DNA of 64,000 nucleotides. It comes from Oscillospiraceae bacterium. GTDB lineage: Bacteria; Bacillota; Clostridia; Monoglobales; Monoglobaceae. Below the pieces are notes generated by a model. It saw only the letters and a list, made by a program, of their open reading frames with translations, was not told where the DNA came from and searched no databases. Of this stretch, positions 1 through 54,162 are shown in pieces. A program made the position numbers and the translations under genes. Location of the stretch: positions 62,001 to 126,000 of the forward strand of contig SVKF01000003.1 of the NCBI GenBank assembly GCA_015068605.1, written 5' to 3'. Numbering within the stretch: position 1 is the stretch's first letter; each line of letters opens with the position of its first letter.

Positions 1-701
1 CCCTCCGTTTCAAAGGAAAATGGCGTAATCTTCTCATCGCCATACTGAACTTCAAGCTCGGAAAAATCAATGGAGTTTTTGGAAATTCTTTGGGGAGTTC
101 CCGTTTTAAATCGTACCAACTCAACACCAATGTCAAGGAGACTTTGTGAAAGCTCCGTTGCAGGGAAAACCCCGTCAGGTCCGCTTTCCTGAGAAAAGTC
201 ACCGATTATAATACGGGATTTCAGATATGTTCCCGTGCAGACGATTGCCGCCTTGCAGGGGAAACAAGCCCCTGTTCGGGTGTAGACTGCCTTAACACGA
301 TTGTTTTCGTCAAGCTCAACACGGACAACCTCGCCTTGACGAAGATGCAGATTTTCCTGCATTTCGATAGTGTGTTTCATAACCTCTTTATATTTATTTC
401 GGTCAATCTGGGCACGGAGAGAATAAACCGCAGGACCTTTGCCTCGGTTCAAAATTCTCGACTGGATAAAGGTTTTATCTGCCGCCTTACCCATTTCTCC
501 GCCCAAGGCGTCAATTTCACGGACAAGATGCCCCTTTGCCGTTCCGCCAATACTTGGGTTACAGGGCATATTTGCAACACCATCAAGACTTATGGAGAAA
601 AGACAGGTCTTTGCCCCAAGCCTTGCCGCCGCAAGAGCCGCCTCCGCACCTGCGTGTCCCGCACCGATAACGGCAACATCATATTCTTCAACAATAAACA
701 A
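1..701 (-). CDS. mnmG: tRNA uridine-5-carboxymethylaminomethyl(34) synthesis enzyme MnmG (GidA), N-terminal part, truncated by window edge
   Basis: Reverse-strand translation [30 protein letters not shown]...[24 protein letters not shown]...; FAD-binding GxGxxG; TTG start with AGGAGG upstream, so absent from the ORF track. Confidence 0.93.
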
Positions 702-4533: not shown

Positions 4534-5031
4534 ATGAAATGTCAAAAATGTAATGAGCGTGAAGCAAACACGCATATTCAAAAAATTGTAAACGGAAAAA
4601 AGACGGAATATTATCTTTGCAGTAAATGTGCCGCAGAGTCCGGGGAGCTTAAAATCAGCTTTGATGGAGATTTTGATAATTTCTTCGGCGGACTGTTCGG
4701 GAAGGGAACAAATCTGTTTTCCGCGCCGGCGGATAAGGTTTGCGGAGTCTGCAAAATGACCCTTTCGGAATTTTTGAAACACGGAAAGCTTGGGTGCAGT
4801 AAGTGTTATGAGGAATTTGAAGCATCGCTGTCAAAGCCCTTAAAGCAAATTCACGGTCAATCCACCCACACGGGCAAAATTCCCAAACGGAGCGAAAAGG
4901 AAATCAGCCGCGAGGCGAAAATAAGACGGCTTCAATCAGAGCTTGAGGCGGCAGTTTCAAATCAGGAGTTTGAAATGGCGGCAAAGCTTCGTGATGAAAT
5001 CAATGCTTTAAAAGAAGGAGGGGAAAAGTAA
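4534..5031 (+). CDS. mcsA: McsA-like protein (CXXC zinc fingers, UVR domain)
   Basis: MKCQKCNEREANTHI..., paired CxxC, C-terminal UVR motif LEAAVSNQEFEMAAKLRDEI; between ctsR and mcsB. Confidence 0.93.
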   Translation: MKCQKCNEREANTHIQKIVNGKKTEYYLCSKCAAESGELKISFDGDFDNFFGGLFGKGTNLFSAPADKVCGVCKMTLSEFLKHGKLGCSKCYEEFEASLSKPLKQIHGQSTHTGKIPKRSEKEISREAKIRRLQSELEAAVSNQEFEMAAKLRDEINALKEGGEK

Positions 5032-6032
5032 TGTGGTACACCAAATTCGGAAATATGGGTGATGTTGTTTTATCAACAAGGGTGAGACTTGCCAGGAATT
5101 TAAAGGATAAACCCTTCCCAAATCGTGCTGATAAATCTCAGCAGGAGGAAATTATAGACATATTAAAAGCGGCGGCGGAAAAAATAGAAAATACCAAATT
5201 CTTTGACCTTTCAAATATGCAGGAAAGAGAGAAAAAGGCACTTGCGGAGCGGCATATTATAAGCCCTCTTTTAACGGACAATAAAATTAAGCGCGGTTTG
5301 GTTTTATCTGATGACCAGAGAATAAGTGTAATGCTTATGGAGGAGGACCATTTAAGAATTCAGACTATGCACGAGGGATTTGCCATAGAAGAATGTTTAA
5401 ACTCCGCAATGGAGGTTGACGATATTTTAGAGGAAAGCTTAGACTATGCTTTTTCGGAGAAGCTTGGATATCTGACCTGCTGTCCGACCAATGTGGGAAC
5501 GGGATTGCGTATTTCGGTTATGGTATGCCTGCCGGGGATAACAATGGCAGGGAGAATTGATTCTCTGTCACGCACTCTTTCAAAAATGGGGATTGCGGTG
5601 AGAGGAATTTTTGGCGAAGGAAGTCAGAGCCTTGGGAATATATATCAAATTTCAAATCAGGTAACCCTTGGCATAAGCGAGGAAGAAACAGCCCAAAAGC
5701 TTTCGGAAATCGTCAGCGAAATTATTTCTCAGGAACGGTCGCTCCAACAGAAAATCTATCTTTCGGATAAGTTCAGAATAGAGGATAAGGTTATGCGTTC
5801 TCTGGGCACACTTAAATATTCAAGGGTTATGGGCTCGGAGGAGGCATTGGGACTTATATCGGATGTACGGTTTGGTATAAATCTGGGTATAATCAAGGAG
5901 ACGAACCTGGAAAAGCTGAATGAAATTTTGTATTCCATCCTGCCTGCAATACTTTCCGCAAGCTACAATGTTGAAACTGTGGCGGACAGAGATATAAAAA
6001 GGGCAGAGGTTATTCGTGAAAAACTAGGCTGA
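5031..6032 (+). CDS. mcsB: Protein arginine kinase McsB
   Basis: STRVRLARNL, CPTNVGTGLR phosphagen-kinase-like motifs; operon context. Confidence 0.96.
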   Translation: MWYTKFGNMGDVVLSTRVRLARNLKDKPFPNRADKSQQEEIIDILKAAAEKIENTKFFDLSNMQEREKKALAERHIISPLLTDNKIKRGLVLSDDQRISVMLMEEDHLRIQTMHEGFAIEECLNSAMEVDDILEESLDYAFSEKLGYLTCCPTNVGTGLRISVMVCLPGITMAGRIDSLSRTLSKMGIAVRGIFGEGSQSLGNIYQISNQVTLGISEEETAQKLSEIVSEIISQERSLQQKIYLSDKFRIEDKVMRSLGTLKYSRVMGSEEALGLISDVRFGINLGIIKETNLEKLNEILYSILPAILSASYNVETVADRDIKRAEVIREKLG

Positions 6033-6065
6033 TTTTAAATCGGCGGAAAGGACGGTAAAAATCTT

Positions 6066-8549
6066 ATGTTTGAACAGAAATTAACTGAAAGAGCAAGAGA
6101 AGCGATTATGCTTTCGGAAGATTGTGCCAAAGAAATGGGGCATAACTATATCGGAACGGAGCATCTTTTATGGGGGCTTATTTCCGAGGGCGAGGGCGTT
6201 GCGGCAAAAGCCCTTGAAACGAATGGCTTGACCGCAGATAAAGTCGAAAAGAAAATAGATGTGTTTGTTGGAACAGGCAAGCCTCTCGAAAAAATATCAA
6301 CAGGCTTCACACCAAGGACAAAATCCGTTTTAGAGCGAAGCTATGCAGAGGCGATGCGTCTTGGCCACGGCTATATCGGAACAGAGCATATTCTCATATC
6401 CCTTCTTCGTGAGGGGGAGAGCCTTGCTGTGAGAATTTTAAGCGACAGCGGAATTAATATTCAAAAGCTTTACAGAGATATTATAAAAGCGGTCAATGAG
6501 GAGGGGGAGGAGGAAGCACCTCAGTCTCCGCAGGAAAATCAAGCTCCGCAAAAGCCAAGAGGGAAAGCTAAAACGCCAACTCTTGAAAAATTTGGCAGAG
6601 ATTTGACGGATATGGCGAGAAATTTAAAACTTGACCCGGTTATCGGCAGAGATTTGGTTATTGAGAGAGTTGTTCAGATTCTGTCAAGACGAACAAAAAA
6701 TAATCCGTGTCTTATAGGTGAGCCCGGAGTTGGTAAAACCGCTGTGGCTGAAGGTTTGGCGCAGAAGATAGTAAACGGTGAAGTTCCCGAAATTTTAAGG
6801 GATAAAAAGGTTATAACCCTTGATTTATCTTCAATGGTTGCAGGGGCAAAATATCGTGGTGAGTTTGAGGAAAGACTCAAAGCCGCAATGGACGAAATAC
6901 GAAAAGCGGGGGATGTTATCCTCTTTATTGATGAAATCCATACCCTTGTGGGTGCAGGCGCGGCAGAGGGGGCAATAGATGCTGCAAATATTTTAAAGCC
7001 TGCACTGTCCCGTGGTGAAATTCAGGTTATCGGTGCAACAACGATAAATGAATACAGAAAATATATCGAAAAAGATGCGGCTTTGGAGAGAAGATTTCAG
7101 CCAATTCAGCTTGACGAGCCAACGCAGGAGGAGTGCGTTGAAATCCTGAAAGGGATAAGGGATAAATATGAAGCACACCACAAGGTTACAATAACCGACG
7201 GGGCGCTTACGGCGGCTGTTAAACTTTCGGTAAGATATATTCCGGACAGATTTCTCCCCGATAAAGCGATTGACTTAATTGATGAGGCGGCGTCAAAAAT
7301 CAGAATGAAAACTCTGACCGCTCCACCTGATTTAAAGGAAATTGAGGAAGAGATTGAGAAGGTTAAGAAGGAGAAAGAGGCGGCGATAACAACCCAGGAA
7401 TATGAAAAAGCCGCAAAACTCCGTGATAAGGAAAGAGAACTTTCGGAAAAACTCAAATCCACCAAGGAAAACTGGAAGAGCGAAAGCAATATGGCAACCA
7501 AAAAAGTAACCCCCGAAGAGATTGCGGAAGTTGTTTCAATTTGGACAGGCGTTCCCGTTAAGTCAATTTCGGGCGGCGAAGGAGAAAGACTTTTAAAGCT
7601 TGAAGAAACTCTTCATAACAGAGTTATCGGTCAGAATGAAGCGGTTGTGTCGGTTTCAAAGGCTATAAGACGAGGCAGAGTTGGGCTTAAAGACCCGAAA
7701 CGCCCGATTGGTTCATTTATCTTTTTAGGTCCGACGGGCGTGGGAAAAACGGAGCTTTCAAAGGCTCTTGCTGAAGCAATGTTCGGGGACGAAGATGCCC
7801 TTATCCGCTTTGATATGTCGGAATATATGGAAAAACACACCGTTTCAAGACTTGTGGGCTCACCTCCGGGTTATGTAGGTCACGAGGAGGGCGGTCAGCT
7901 TACGGAAAAGGTGAGAAGAAAGCCTTATAGCGTGGTGCTTTTTGATGAAATTGAAAAGGCACATCCCGATATTTTTAATATCCTGCTTCAGATTTTAGAT
8001 GACGGAATTTTAACGGATTCACAGGGCAGAAAAGTTGATTTCCGCAATACGGTTATAATTATGACATCGAATTTAGGCGCAAGAATGATAACTGAAAATA
8101 AGAGCCTCGGATTTTCTGCAGGAGACAGCGGGAAAACGGAGCGGGATTATGAACGGATTAAGTCGGATGTTATGAGCGAGGTTAAAAGAGCGTTCAGACC
8201 CGAATTTTTAAACCGTGTTGACGATATAATTGTGTTCCACCAGCTGACAGATGATGATATTAAGCAGATTGCGGTTAAGATGCTTGAAAACCTTTCAAAA
8301 AGGCTGTTGCAAAACGGCATTGAAGCCAGATTTACGGAAAAGGCAGTAAGTGCAATCGGCGGAAAAGGCTTTGATGCGATTTACGGAGCAAGACCTTTAA
8401 GACGGGCAATTCAGTCGGATATAGAAGACCTTATTGCAGAAGAAATGCTTGAAGGCAAAGTCAAAGACGGCGATAAAATAACCGTGGACTATGTGAAAGA
8501 CAAATTTACAGTTAAGCATCGCAAGGGCACAATTAAAATTGAAGAATAA
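6066..8549 (+). CDS. clpC: ATP-dependent Clp protease ATP-binding subunit ClpC
   Basis: Two AAA+ domains ([25 protein letters not shown]), N-terminal Clp repeats, UVR linker. Confidence 0.97.
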
Positions 8550-8642
8550 ATATGGCGGTGCAGAAAAATGTACCGACCGCACAAGGCGATATAAACTCAA
8601 TAAAGCCTTTTAAATGCACCGAAAACTTAAAATAAAGAGAAA

Positions 8643-8822
8643 TTTGTCCTTGATGAATACGCGGCTTATAACATGCAAAGACAGTTAGATGCATTAATGC
8701 CAACAATAAAACAATCTGCAGAATTAGCAAGTAAAGCATATGAGGTAGACGCATTTGAGATTCTTGCGGCATTTTTGCAAGATGAAATTGCAAAATTAAA
8801 ACAAAAATATAATATAAGATAA
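8643..8822 (+). pseudogene. Short orphan or decayed ORF downstream of clpC (FVLDEYAAYNMQRQLDALMPTIKQSAELASKAYEVDAFEILAAFLQDEIAKLKQKYNIR)
   Basis: Coding-like composition but preceded by in-frame stops; no clear RBS; family not recognised. Confidence 0.3.
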
Positions 8823-8850
8823 TATTATCTGTTTTTCAAAAAAGTTAAAC

Positions 8851-8972
8851 TTGACATATTTGATAAAATATGATAATATAAGTGTAGCAAGAGGGAACGA
8901 CATCAGTTGTTTCCGCAAAGTTAATAGTTTTTTACAAAACCGTCACTTGTGCAGAAGTGGCGGTTATTTCTG
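8851..8972 (+). ncRNA. Candidate antisense/partner small RNA of a convergent small-peptide locus
   Basis: TTGACA (8851-8856)-17-TAATAT (8874-8879) promoter; RNA would start TGTAGCAAGAG and end at hairpin 8938-8965. Confidence 0.5.
8938..8965. terminator. Bidirectional intrinsic terminator shared by convergent RNAs
   Basis: AACCGTCACTT-gtgcag-AAGTGGCGGTT stem, T-rich on both outer sides. Confidence 0.7.
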
Positions 8973-9026
8973 TATGTAAATAATAATTATCATTACCAAT
9001 AGAGTAAAAGAAATTATTTCTTCCAC
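8964..9026 (-). CDS. Candidate 20-aa hydrophobic peptide (MEEIISFTLLVMIIIIYIQK), type I toxin-like
   Basis: GTG start, strong AAAGGGGGTG RBS; upstream minus-strand promoter TTGACA (9115-9120)-18-TATAAT (9091-9096); stop codon inside shared terminator. Confidence 0.5.
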   Translation of the reverse strand: MEEIISFTLLVMIIIIYIQK

Positions 9027-9281
9027 ATTAACACCCCCTTTCATAGAGGTGTCGGAAACAACCGCCGCCGTTTCTCTTGCTACAAATGGTATTATAACAC
9101 AACAACGCAGGCGGTGTCAAATTGAAGTTGTCATAATAAAGCCACTTTTTCACTATTTTCATACATTTCTTGTCTTATCAAGGTAAACGGCAAATTCTTC
9201 TCTTACCTCCGGCAGTGAAACAATTTTAACTTTTTTACCAAATTTCAAAAACCAACTTAATTATTAAATTTGAAAAATATA

Positions 9282-9310
9282 TTGATTTAATAATCCAATA
9301 GTGGTATAAT
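9282..9310 (+). promoter_or_regulatory. Promoter of structured RNA copy R1
   Basis: TTGATT-17-TATAAT; predicted +1 coincides with closing helix at 9317. Confidence 0.6.
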
Positions 9311-9316
9311 ATATTC

Positions 9317-9537
9317 ACCACATACTATAATTTTAATAATAGATTTTAGATATTTTTATGAATATCTATTTTTGCTATCCTTTTGGGGTATCATAAAACA
9401 AATTTGTGTTTGTTAAAAACGCAGGCTGTGATATGGTATTTGTTTTGTGATATTCATATTTGGTTATAGTGTGTGGTAACATTGAAATCGAGCCGCGTTT
9501 TTATGCGTGGCAAGACTTCTGTTGCCACGCATTTTTT
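9317..9537 (+). ncRNA. Structured RNA family copy R1 (closing helix, inner helix, pseudoknot, terminator)
   Basis: 9317-9330 pairs 9464-9477 (14 bp); 9390-9403 pairs 9438-9451 (14 bp); apical 9414-9426 pairs 9492-9503; terminator 9504-9537. Confidence 0.65.
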
Positions 9538-9611
9538 ATTGCGTGAGAATTTAGAAAGGAGTAAAATTTTAAGGTCATACATAATAATAGTTTAGAAAAA
9601 GGAGAAAAATT

Positions 9612-10112
9612 ATGAAAAAAATTATTACAACTATTTTGTTAGGAGTTTTATGTTTATCGTTGTGTGCATGTAACACAAAAAATATCGTCTCTAACACTAT
9701 GGAAGATGTAACCAACAAAACATTTTCATTGGGAGAAAAAGCAGAAATAGACGATGTTGAGGTGACCATGGTTGATGTTTATGAAAGCACAGGTGAGGCG
9801 TTTTCAAAGCCTGCAGACGGAAATGTATATGTGATTTGCGAATTCAATATCGAGAATAATTCAAGCAAAGATTTGACTGTATCGTCCATGCTTAGTTTTG
9901 AAGCATATTGCGATGATTCTTCCTGTAATTTAAGTATTTCGGCAATGGCATCAAATAGCGAAAAAAAGCAATTAGATGGAAAAATCGCTCCCGGGAAAAA
10001 GCTTTCCGGTATTATAGGCTATGAGGTTCCTGCTGATTGGAGTAATATGGAAATAAGATACACACCCGATCCTTTAAAAGATGACGAAGTTGTATTTGTA
10101 GCAACCAAATAA
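9612..10112 (+). CDS. Lipoprotein with DUF4352-like Ig-fold domain
   Basis: Lipobox LSLCAC; EIDDVEVTMVDVYES...YVICEFNIENNSSKDL pattern. Confidence 0.7.
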   Translation: MKKIITTILLGVLCLSLCACNTKNIVSNTMEDVTNKTFSLGEKAEIDDVEVTMVDVYESTGEAFSKPADGNVYVICEFNIENNSSKDLTVSSMLSFEAYCDDSSCNLSISAMASNSEKKQLDGKIAPGKKLSGIIGYEVPADWSNMEIRYTPDPLKDDEVVFVATK

Positions 10113-28736: not shown

Positions 28737-28857
28737 ATAGGAATCAATTATCTTATCACATATATTTTAGTAACATTTTTTCTTACATTAACTAAGAAAA
28801 AAACAAAAAGCATATTAATTTTAAATGTTACAGCATAGCACCAATGATTTGTTGGGA

Positions 28858-29040
28858 AGTCGCCTTCTCCTCGAGGGGAAGGGGAACCGCTTGCGGTGGA
28901 TGAGGTGGTGCAGTAAAATGCAAGATAATTCAACAGTTACATCTGTATTTTACACCTCATCAGTCTCACTGCATACCCAGCTTCCCCTCAAGGGGAAGCC
29001 ATAAGGAGAGGTCGTAAGAGGAAGCCCTCAAGGGGAAGCC
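28858..29040. repeat. MITE/REP-like intergenic repeat
   Basis: Repeated CTTCCCCTCAAGGGGAAGCC blocks; inverted GATGAGGTG (28899-28907) / CACCTCATC (28953-28961). Confidence 0.6.
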
Positions 29041-29053
29041 TGAAAATAGTAAC

Positions 29054-29154: not shown

Positions 29155-29356
29155 ATGCCAAATGAATCAAATTTAATATATGAGGGTATTTGTAAGGGGA
29201 TAATTGTATCTTTTTTTAGGAATAACTACACCAAGGAATTTGATAAAAACGCAAATTCTAACGGTGTGGTTGTGATAAATATCCTCACGTTTGATTTGTT
29301 TGGCGACAATTGGAGTTTGCGTTTTTTATGCGTCGGCTTCGGTTGGCGCATTTTTT
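29155..29356 (+). ncRNA. Structured RNA family copy R2
   Basis: 29157-29171/29290-29304 (15 bp), 29182-29193/29275-29286 (12 bp), 29222-29232/29263-29273 (11 bp), pseudoknot 29245-29258/29313-29326, terminator 29328-29356. Confidence 0.7.
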
Positions 29357-29388
29357 AATTTTCGGGTGGGTATTTATTTTAAAAACTA

Positions 29389-29422: not shown

Positions 29423-29621
29423 ATGCCAAACGAAGTTAATAATATAAAGAGGAATATTTTGTAAGGAATATTTTTGTTATTTGAGTACAAATTTACAGTT
29501 AAAGAATTTGATAAAAATGCAAATTCCAAGGCTGTAGATTTGGATATTCCATTATTAGCTTTGTTTGGCGACAATCGGAGTTTGCGTTTTTTATGCGCTG
29601 ACTTTGGTTGGCGCATTTTTT
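29423..29621 (+). ncRNA. Structured RNA family copy R3 (tandem with R2)
   Basis: 29425-29443/29551-29569 (19 bp), 29451-29459/29542-29550, 29488-29498/29532-29542, pseudoknot 29513-29526/29578-29591, terminator 29593-29621. Confidence 0.7.
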
Positions 29622-29639: not shown

Positions 29640-29936
29640 ATGAGGAAAATAGTTGCTTTTTTGATGTTAATTTTTTTATTGACGGGATGTTCACCAAAGG
29701 AAGCGGAAAAAACATCGGTAGAAGATTACTCTGATGTATGGGAAGCTGAAGAGGATGAAAGTGAAGAAGTTGAAGATGTTGAAGAAAACCAATATGTCGG
29801 GTCAATAAAATCCAATATATATCATATTCCTAATTGCAGCTGGGTTAAAAACATAAAAAAAGAGAATGAAATCCGGTTTGACTCCAAAGAGGAAGCAACA
29901 TCAAGAGGATACCGTGGATGTTATACCTGTATGTAA
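29640..29936 (+). CDS. Small lipoprotein with acidic linker and Ada-like zinc-binding Cys motif
   Basis: ATG at 29640 with GGGAGGA RBS; lipobox LLTGCS; YHIPNCSWVKNI...SRGYRGCYTCM. Confidence 0.75.
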   Translation: MRKIVAFLMLIFLLTGCSPKEAEKTSVEDYSDVWEAEEDESEEVEDVEENQYVGSIKSNIYHIPNCSWVKNIKKENEIRFDSKEEATSRGYRGCYTCM

Positions 29937-39029: not shown

Positions 39030-39037
39030 AATTTAAA

Positions 39038-39148
39038 ACTTCAGGGATTGGTGAAATTCCATACCGGTGGTAAAGCCCACGAGCCTTATTAAAGGTTGAT
39101 TTGGTGAAATTCCAAAGCCGACGGTATAGTCCGGATGAAAGAAGAAAG
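39038..39148 (+). promoter_or_regulatory. FMN riboswitch (RFN element)
   Basis: GGTGAAATTCCATACCGGTGGTAAAGCCCACGAGC...TTGGTGAAATTCCAAAGCCGACGGTATAGTCCGGATGAAAGAAG. Confidence 0.95.
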
Positions 39149-39159
39149 CAGATTTTCTG

Positions 39160-39776: not shown

Positions 39777-39782
39777 GACAAT

Positions 39783-39921
39783 GCGAAACAATTAAAAAAG
39801 CACACCGGTGTTTTTTGCTTTTAGGCAAAAACGCACGTTTATTTTCTATGCCTGTGTGCTGATAATAAAATTGTTTCGCAGCAAGTGCGTTTTTCGGGCG
39901 CAGCTTGTCTGCGCTTTTTTT
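39783..39921 (+). ncRNA. Structured RNA family copy R4 (compact form)
   Basis: GCGAAACAATT (39783-39793)/AATTGTTTCGC (39869-39879); AGCACAC (39799-39805)/GTGTGCT (39854-39860); pseudoknot AAAAACGCAC (39827-39836)/GTGCGTTTTT (39885-39894); terminator GCGCAG-cttgt-CTGCGC-T7. Confidence 0.65.
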
Positions 39922-39973
39922 AGTTAAACGCACTTAAACGCCAATCGTCGCGAAACAAAGCTGGCATAACAAA

Positions 39974-53672: not shown

Positions 53673-54044
53673 GTTGCCCAAATCTTATTTTATTTTGACA
53701 AGGTTTTAGTGGTGGAGTGGAAGTTAAACTTGAAAAAAGTAAAAAAATAATATTTCCCAAAAACAAACAAAGTTCATTTTTGGGAAATAGAAATCGGGTA
53801 ACTATGCTTATTGCGGAAATTATCAAAAAAATTTATTTTTTCTTAAAATTGACTTTTGGTTGAAATCTCAACCAAAACATTAAATTGAGTATATTTTCCC
53901 TGAAAAAAACTTTTTTTCTGGTTATTGACATACGTAAAAAAATCAATTATAATAGGTTATGTAATAAAGATTGCTTATGCAATCCGGCACAAATCTTATG
54001 GTAAAAATATAAGGTTGGTGGTCGAATGGTTAAAATTAAATAAA

Positions 54045-54132
54045 AACGGGAGCTTGTATTACAGGCTGAGAGGAAGGTGTGACCTTCGACCGAGAACCTG
54101 ATTTGGATAATGCCAACGTAGGGATGCCGAAA
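54045..54132 (+). promoter_or_regulatory. TPP riboswitch (THI-box)
   Basis: GGCTGAGAGGAAGGTGTGACCTTCGACCGAGAACCTGATTTGGATAATGCCAACGTAGGGA. Confidence 0.97.
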
Positions 54133-54162
54133 CATTTTGTTTTAGGAAAACTTAAGTTTACT

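Follow-up and report, generated by a model that had tools for sequence, protein, structure and literature searches.

A Candidate Transcription Attenuator of a Riboswitch-like Class Recurring in Clostridia Genomes

R1, an RNA element encoded at positions 9317–9537 of the 64-kb window (the whole stretch of DNA that was analyzed), probably attenuates transcription in cis and belongs to a riboswitch-like class that has not been described before, as judged from its own sequence and those of its relatives. It is read as a termination/antitermination switch because most copies are located upstream of a same-strand gene and because the strand that forms the 3′ side of a pseudoknot also builds an antiterminator. 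Indeed, the two hallmarks of an attenuator, i.e., an intrinsic terminator upstream of a gene and a conserved, mutually exclusive antiterminator helix, were both found, and a conserved structured domain lies ahead of this expression platform, as in riboswitches. The four pairings, their covariation, the placement of promoter and terminator, and the downstream genes are well supported by sequence.

Overall Structure of R1 and Its Copies in the Window

According to the original prediction, R1 is a structured RNA that recurs in the window, is transcribed from a promoter of its own, and consists of a closing helix starting at +1, an inner helix, an apical-loop pseudoknot, and a terminator. All of these pairings are present (Table 1). 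The minimum free energy of the predicted fold is −71.8 kcal/mol, against −43.4 ± 4.2 kcal/mol in shuffled sequences (z = −6.8), and 0 of 200 shuffles were as stable. Judged by the promoter position, transcription begins at about 9317, where the closing helix (P1) has its first base. The helix itself was predicted correctly; its length is 16 bp and not 14 bp. Among family members, the gap between the −10 box and the first base of P1 is most often 5 nt (48/111). Strand b, AAAAACGCAGGC, is complementary to strand c, GCCGCGTTTTT, with one bulged A. The loop of the antiterminator hairpin consists mostly of the U tract of c, and the 3′ region of R1, when isolated, has the antiterminator rather than the terminator as its predicted fold; this model fits a switch but falls short of proof.

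The prediction that there is no ORF holds for the interior of R1, where no credible ORF was found and all frames are of 40 aa or less. It is not supported in the sense of a free-standing RNA: an ORF preceded by a Shine-Dalgarno (SD) site starts at 9612. Besides this ORF, the second partner of c, namely the terminator, and the second partner of b, namely strand a in a local hairpin, are additions to what had been predicted. The same topology had been noted at 29 and 39 kb, and copies were located there, two in tandem at 29156 and 29424 (R2 and R3) and one at 39782 (R4).

Table 1. Features of R1, its copies, and their neighboring genes in the window.
Feature	Position	Strand	Description
R1 promoter	9282–9310	+	Sigma-70-type; −35 TTGATT, 17 nt spacing, extended −10 TGGTATAAT (TATAAT); +1 at ~9317
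R1 closing helix P1	9317–9477	+	9317–9332 pairs with 9462–9477, 16 bp; encloses the inner domain; covaries across the family
R1 inner helix	9390–9451	+	9390–9403 with 9438–9451
R1 strand a	9403–9412	+	Local partner of b (apical hairpin); excludes the pseudoknot; family tests in support
R1 strand b	9415–9426	+	Pseudoknot 5′ strand
R1 strand c	9492–9502	+	Pseudoknot 3′ strand, 3′ of P1; also antiterminator core and its U loop
R1 antiterminator hairpin	9476–9525	+	Linker and c against terminator 5′ arm and loop; predicted fold and duplex; family covariation
R1 intrinsic terminator	9503–9538	+	Stem-loop 9503–9532, then U tract; family covariation
R1 downstream gene	9612–10112	+	DUF4352 lipoprotein; SD site; starts ~75 nt behind the terminator; probable R1 target
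Copy R2	29156–29357	+	First of the tandem pair; own promoter and terminator
Copy R3	29424–29620	+	Second of the tandem pair; small lipoprotein gene directly downstream
R2/R3 probable target	29640–29936	+	Small lipoprotein with Ada-type metal-binding domain
Copy R4	39782–39922	+	Short form that retains the antiterminator; follows an ECF transporter gene and is convergent with a gene of the EPSP-synthase family

R2 and R3 share 98% identity in the promoter, 92% in the b core, and 96% in the c region. Their inner stems share 68–71%, with a shuffled expectation of 56–61%. Such drift of the inner stems beside a kept promoter, b, and c is as expected if the stems count only as stems.

Other sequences were noticed around these copies. 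Upstream of R2 (28819–29050) lies a repetitive palindromic stretch of the CTTCCCCTCGAGGGGAAG type, possibly a MITE-like repeat. An inverted 3′ half of the element directly follows the terminator at 39900–39960 of the window and also in the loci L001, L003, L012, L013, L156, L169, L183, and L196. These inverted 3′ halves (e.g., AAACGCAC..GTCGC.AAACAA), found behind several stand-alone copies, resemble a decayed second copy in tail-to-tail orientation; the tandem copies of L003 have it in common.

Family Members and Distribution

Neither of the outcomes named as refuting the original prediction was seen: comparison with Rfam, 6S RNA included, gave no match to a known family, and an expanded alignment revealed strong covariation, as described below.

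A loose b/c pattern gave 21 strand-matches in the host genome and none in the reversed control, and it recurs across relatives. The short b/c pattern was dropped for viral contigs, where its specificity was too low. Members were then defined by a descriptor consisting of the pseudoknot, P1, and, in nearly all cases, a −10 box and a terminator, and were drawn from loci of the host, its relatives, and further genomes named in GTDB. This descriptor had 130 raw matches in the real loci and 0 in reversed or 3× dinucleotide-shuffled copies of the same DNA, and 113 distinct family members were collected. Since P1, the −10 box, and the terminator all belonged to the descriptor, selection accounts in part for their occurrence in these members. 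The carriers named in GTDB are almost all Clostridia MAGs, many of them from ruminant or rabbit gut.

When the host genome was searched with a covariance model built from the 3′ region alone, with no P1 or b upstream, 27 matches were obtained at E ≤ 0.01, 24 of these at ≤ 6e-4. The host, an uncultured member of the Clostridia with a small genome of 1.6 Mb (draft assembly, 83% complete), carries about 24 copies of the element. The 3′ model brought in 25 loci from the host and other genomes, nearly all of which have P1 and b partners upstream; in two of them, L321 and L338, no convincing P1 was seen. The mean P1 score of the 25 loci was 31.0 with their own and 17.8 with foreign upstream sequence, and the corresponding pseudoknot scores were 23.6 and 19.5. 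Matches were present in 97 of the 392 Clostridia genomes of the class sample and in 24 of 39 relatives, the host counted in. None was obtained in the 398 other genomes of a phylum sample, which contained a few Clostridia and was searched with stricter filters.

Covariation of P1, the Pseudoknot, and the Apical Hairpin

Covariation was analyzed in MAFFT (not structural) alignments of 44 short-form members, 39 long-form members, and 86 3′ ends. Among the short-form members, 12 of the 12 pairs of P1 have changed on both sides, with 97.9% of cells paired. The structure composed of P1 and the pseudoknot contains 112 doubly changed cells, compared with 31.4 ± 3.9 in shuffles, and pairing falls to 38–53% if all partners in this structure are shifted by 1–3 columns. 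The long-form alignment agrees with this result.

The pseudoknot b:c is paired in 99% of cells. Its outer positions (A5/U5) are nearly invariant, and this part is outside the covariation test because the positions hardly vary. A compensated pseudoknot core, AAAAACAC/GTGTTTTT, occurs in two host copies found by the 3′ model; in other copies AAAAATGC stands opposite GCATTTTT, so that only one side differs from AAAAATGC/GCGTTTTT. The local hairpin between a (GAATTTG) and b (CAAATTC), which is mutually exclusive with the pseudoknot, is kept in 92.7% of cells of the long-form alignment. For both a:b and b:c, each copy’s own pairing is stronger than pairing swapped between copies, also when one representative per cluster is used. 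None of 5,000–10,000 permutations was as good for a:b, b:c, or the pairing of c with the terminator 5′ arm (c:T5′), where the permutations only partly remove shared descent.

Within the 45 nt on the 5′ side of b, 75% of members have a run of at least five T, compared with 26% of shuffles. A U·A–U triple helix of this U tract with the A5–U5 stem is only a thought; the T run could simply be strand a.

Antiterminator and Terminator

Across the family, the linker and c can form a duplex with the 5′ arm and loop of the terminator, to which they are complementary. For 111 members, the mean energy of this antiterminator duplex is −15.7 kcal/mol with the own terminator and −11.7 kcal/mol with swapped terminators, and 0 of 5,000 permutations reach the own mean; two control segments gave almost no difference between own and swapped. 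The difference persists when each of 33 linker clusters is represented only once, with values of −15.2 and −11.9 (0 of 10,000 permutations). The antiterminator played no part in member selection. In an unguided search for paired columns among the 86 3′ ends, the terminator ranked first and the two halves of the antiterminator ranked second and third. The antiterminator has 47 doubly changed cells (12.8 ± 4.6 when shuffled), and the terminator has 97 (24.9 ± 4.1). Collectively, these observations support a termination/antitermination switch in which each pairing excludes the next, in the order a:b, b:c, c:T5′, and T5′:T3′.

Downstream Genes

An ORF with an SD site lies behind the terminator in 63 of the 113 members. 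The start codon is located 40–69 nt behind c in 46 of the 113, and there is therefore little room for another promoter. Lipoproteins account for 15 of 52 downstream proteins, compared with 10 of 253 (p = 4e-7), and proteins with Cys4 motifs for 12 of 52, compared with 14 of 253 (p = 3e-4). BspA-type LRR proteins, AbrB-type regulators, and zinc ribbons are also found among them. In the genome G003, close relatives of R1 (L135 and L164) show the same layout before exported proteins with, by eye, apparent LRR-type repeats.

Another 48 members have the terminator and no SD-preceded ORF; they face a convergent gene (24), a more distant same-strand gene (18), or a contig end (6). In five convergent copies of the host, the antiterminator is weak (−6 to −10 kcal/mol), perhaps because these copies are in decay or have been put to another use. 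The convergent copies speak against the attenuator reading. As a separate observation, the element is arranged tail-to-tail with a 180-aa gene in four relatives (L138, L169, L174, and L183); by eye, this gene resembles the ribosome hibernation factor HPF/RaiA.

Comparison with Known Systems

At the gathering score, no family of Rfam 15 (4227 families) matches the element in the window and 20 loci, most of which hold members. A permissive search of nine loci produced no credible match on the element and chance-level scores only; the weak scores at R1 (freshwater-2, preQ1-II, and others; 16–18 bits) were likewise rejected as chance. FMN and TPP riboswitches at 39033–39150 and 54036–54141 of the window exceeded the Rfam gathering score and are useful as positive controls for the scan. 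In the literature, as far as it was covered, no title or abstract describing the element was found.

In riboswitches that terminate transcription, a strand of the aptamer can be shared with the antiterminator. The element resembles them in its 5′ aptamer-like leader domain, shared strand, opposition of antiterminator and terminator, tandem copies, and high number of copies per genome. It differs from them in that it has no Rfam match, the shared strand is the 3′ strand of a pseudoknot, the U5 of this strand is the antiterminator loop, and P1 begins at +1. The c-di-GMP-I riboswitch (RF01051) occurs in many copies per genome and in tandem, and has surface protein and lipoprotein genes as targets. 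The element shares all these traits. However, the c-di-GMP (GEMM) covariance models do not match the element, and the c-di-GMP-I matches of locus L180 lie beside it, not on top of it. As a signal, c-di-GMP is unlikely: a search of the host assembly (83% complete) yielded no GGDEF protein, and the same search gave a match in 8 of 14 control genomes. The L180 matches (118–581, minus strand) are three c-di-GMP-I riboswitches in tandem; the family member, ~1 kb away from them, stands ahead of an AbrB/zinc-ribbon gene.

The attenuators of amino-acid biosynthesis of the trp type follow a 1:2, 2:3, 3:4 pairing logic, and in the element, too, a series of pairings that exclude one another leads up to a terminator. 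Unlike them, it has no leader peptide: transcription starts within P1, and all frames in the RNA are of 40 aa or less. For T-box and leader-peptide attenuators, the search gave no Rfam T-box match and no ORF of more than 40 aa inside R1. 6S RNA (RF00013) is similar to the element in its long closing stem and comparable length, but it is not known to have an antiterminator leader architecture. Its covariance model has no match at R1, and the host genome contains a 6S gene elsewhere (C9:62369–62556, 83.6 bits).

Proposed Mechanism and Alternative Explanations

In the proposed switch, RNA polymerase would start at or beside the first base of P1. Within the emerging RNA, b would pair first with a to form the apical hairpin, P1 would close, and c would then be made. 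In the OFF state, c would pair with b in the pseudoknot, leaving the terminator free to fold, and the RNA would end at ~220 nt. In the ON state, b would stay with a, and c and the linker would pair with the 5′ arm of the terminator in an antiterminator with a U5 loop, permitting read-through into the gene. A cue would tip this balance, most likely a small molecule that binds the P1/pseudoknot domain. We infer the co-transcriptional order, the binding of a ligand, and the state that the ligand favors; a small-molecule riboswitch is suggested by the missing leader peptide, the compact conserved core, and the freely varying stems.

The full reading goes further: an undescribed riboswitch class, present in about one-quarter of the sampled Clostridia genomes, each with as many as some two dozen copies, would sense a signal other than c-di-GMP and control a regulon that comprises surface lipoproteins, LRR proteins, and regulators of the AbrB/zinc-ribbon kind via a pseudoknot strand shared with the antiterminator. 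We give it an even chance. If it is true, one RNA class absent from Rfam would govern up to ~20 transcription units in a genome of 1.6 Mb, and it would be shared by numerous families within the Clostridia; among the named genomes, many are assemblies from gut or rumen. When a riboswitch has so many copies and often precedes genes for surface proteins and lipoproteins, the signal is usually a global one. From the anatomy of four strands, an ON and an OFF state can be predicted for almost all copies.

The cue may instead be an RNA-binding protein acting on the same attenuator, either a LicT/HutP-like protein or a processive antitermination factor, with the convergent copies without antiterminators serving as sponges. 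The stand-alone copies with weak antiterminators and the many copies per genome would be consistent with such a protein. However, the sequences of P1 and of the inner helices vary from copy to copy, those of the inner helices even within tandem pairs, and little sequence-specific docking surface is therefore left beyond b, c, and the linker; we regard this possibility as real but rather unlikely. Another view, which we consider improbable, takes the terminated RNA of ~220 nt as the product itself, i.e., a stand-alone trans-acting or decoy sRNA next to genes that are incidental. It would account for the promoter at P1, the stable fold, and convergent copies such as R4. The SD site and ORF behind so many terminators, the conserved antiterminator, and the enrichment of lipoproteins and Cys4 motifs downstream argue against it, and the reading as a free-standing noncoding RNA was abandoned after the antiterminator and the placement of the SD-preceded ORFs were found.

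Membership in a known family appears very improbable. A long closing stem is also a feature of 6S RNA, and pseudoknotted riboswitches are known, so that R1 might be a divergent member of either; the absence of a match at the Rfam gathering threshold, the chance-level scores at permissive ones, and the separate 6S gene of the host stand against this assignment. Least probable of all is a mobile palindromic element or a decorated terminator that spreads without a regulatory function. The numerous copies, the tandem copies, and the relics of inverted 3′ halves behind several terminators are reminiscent of such an element, but four helices, some of them mutually exclusive, are kept by compensatory change and placed between promoter and gene, which would be unexpected under neutrality.

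Neighboring Locus Upstream of R1

At 8851–9140 of the window, a locus that by eye resembles a type I toxin–antitoxin system of the Fst/Ldr kind was noticed. It has two convergent promoters, whose transcripts begin with a similar TGTAGCAAGAG, and a terminator-like hairpin between them. On its minus strand, a hydrophobic ORF of ~20 codons is located behind a GGGGG site.
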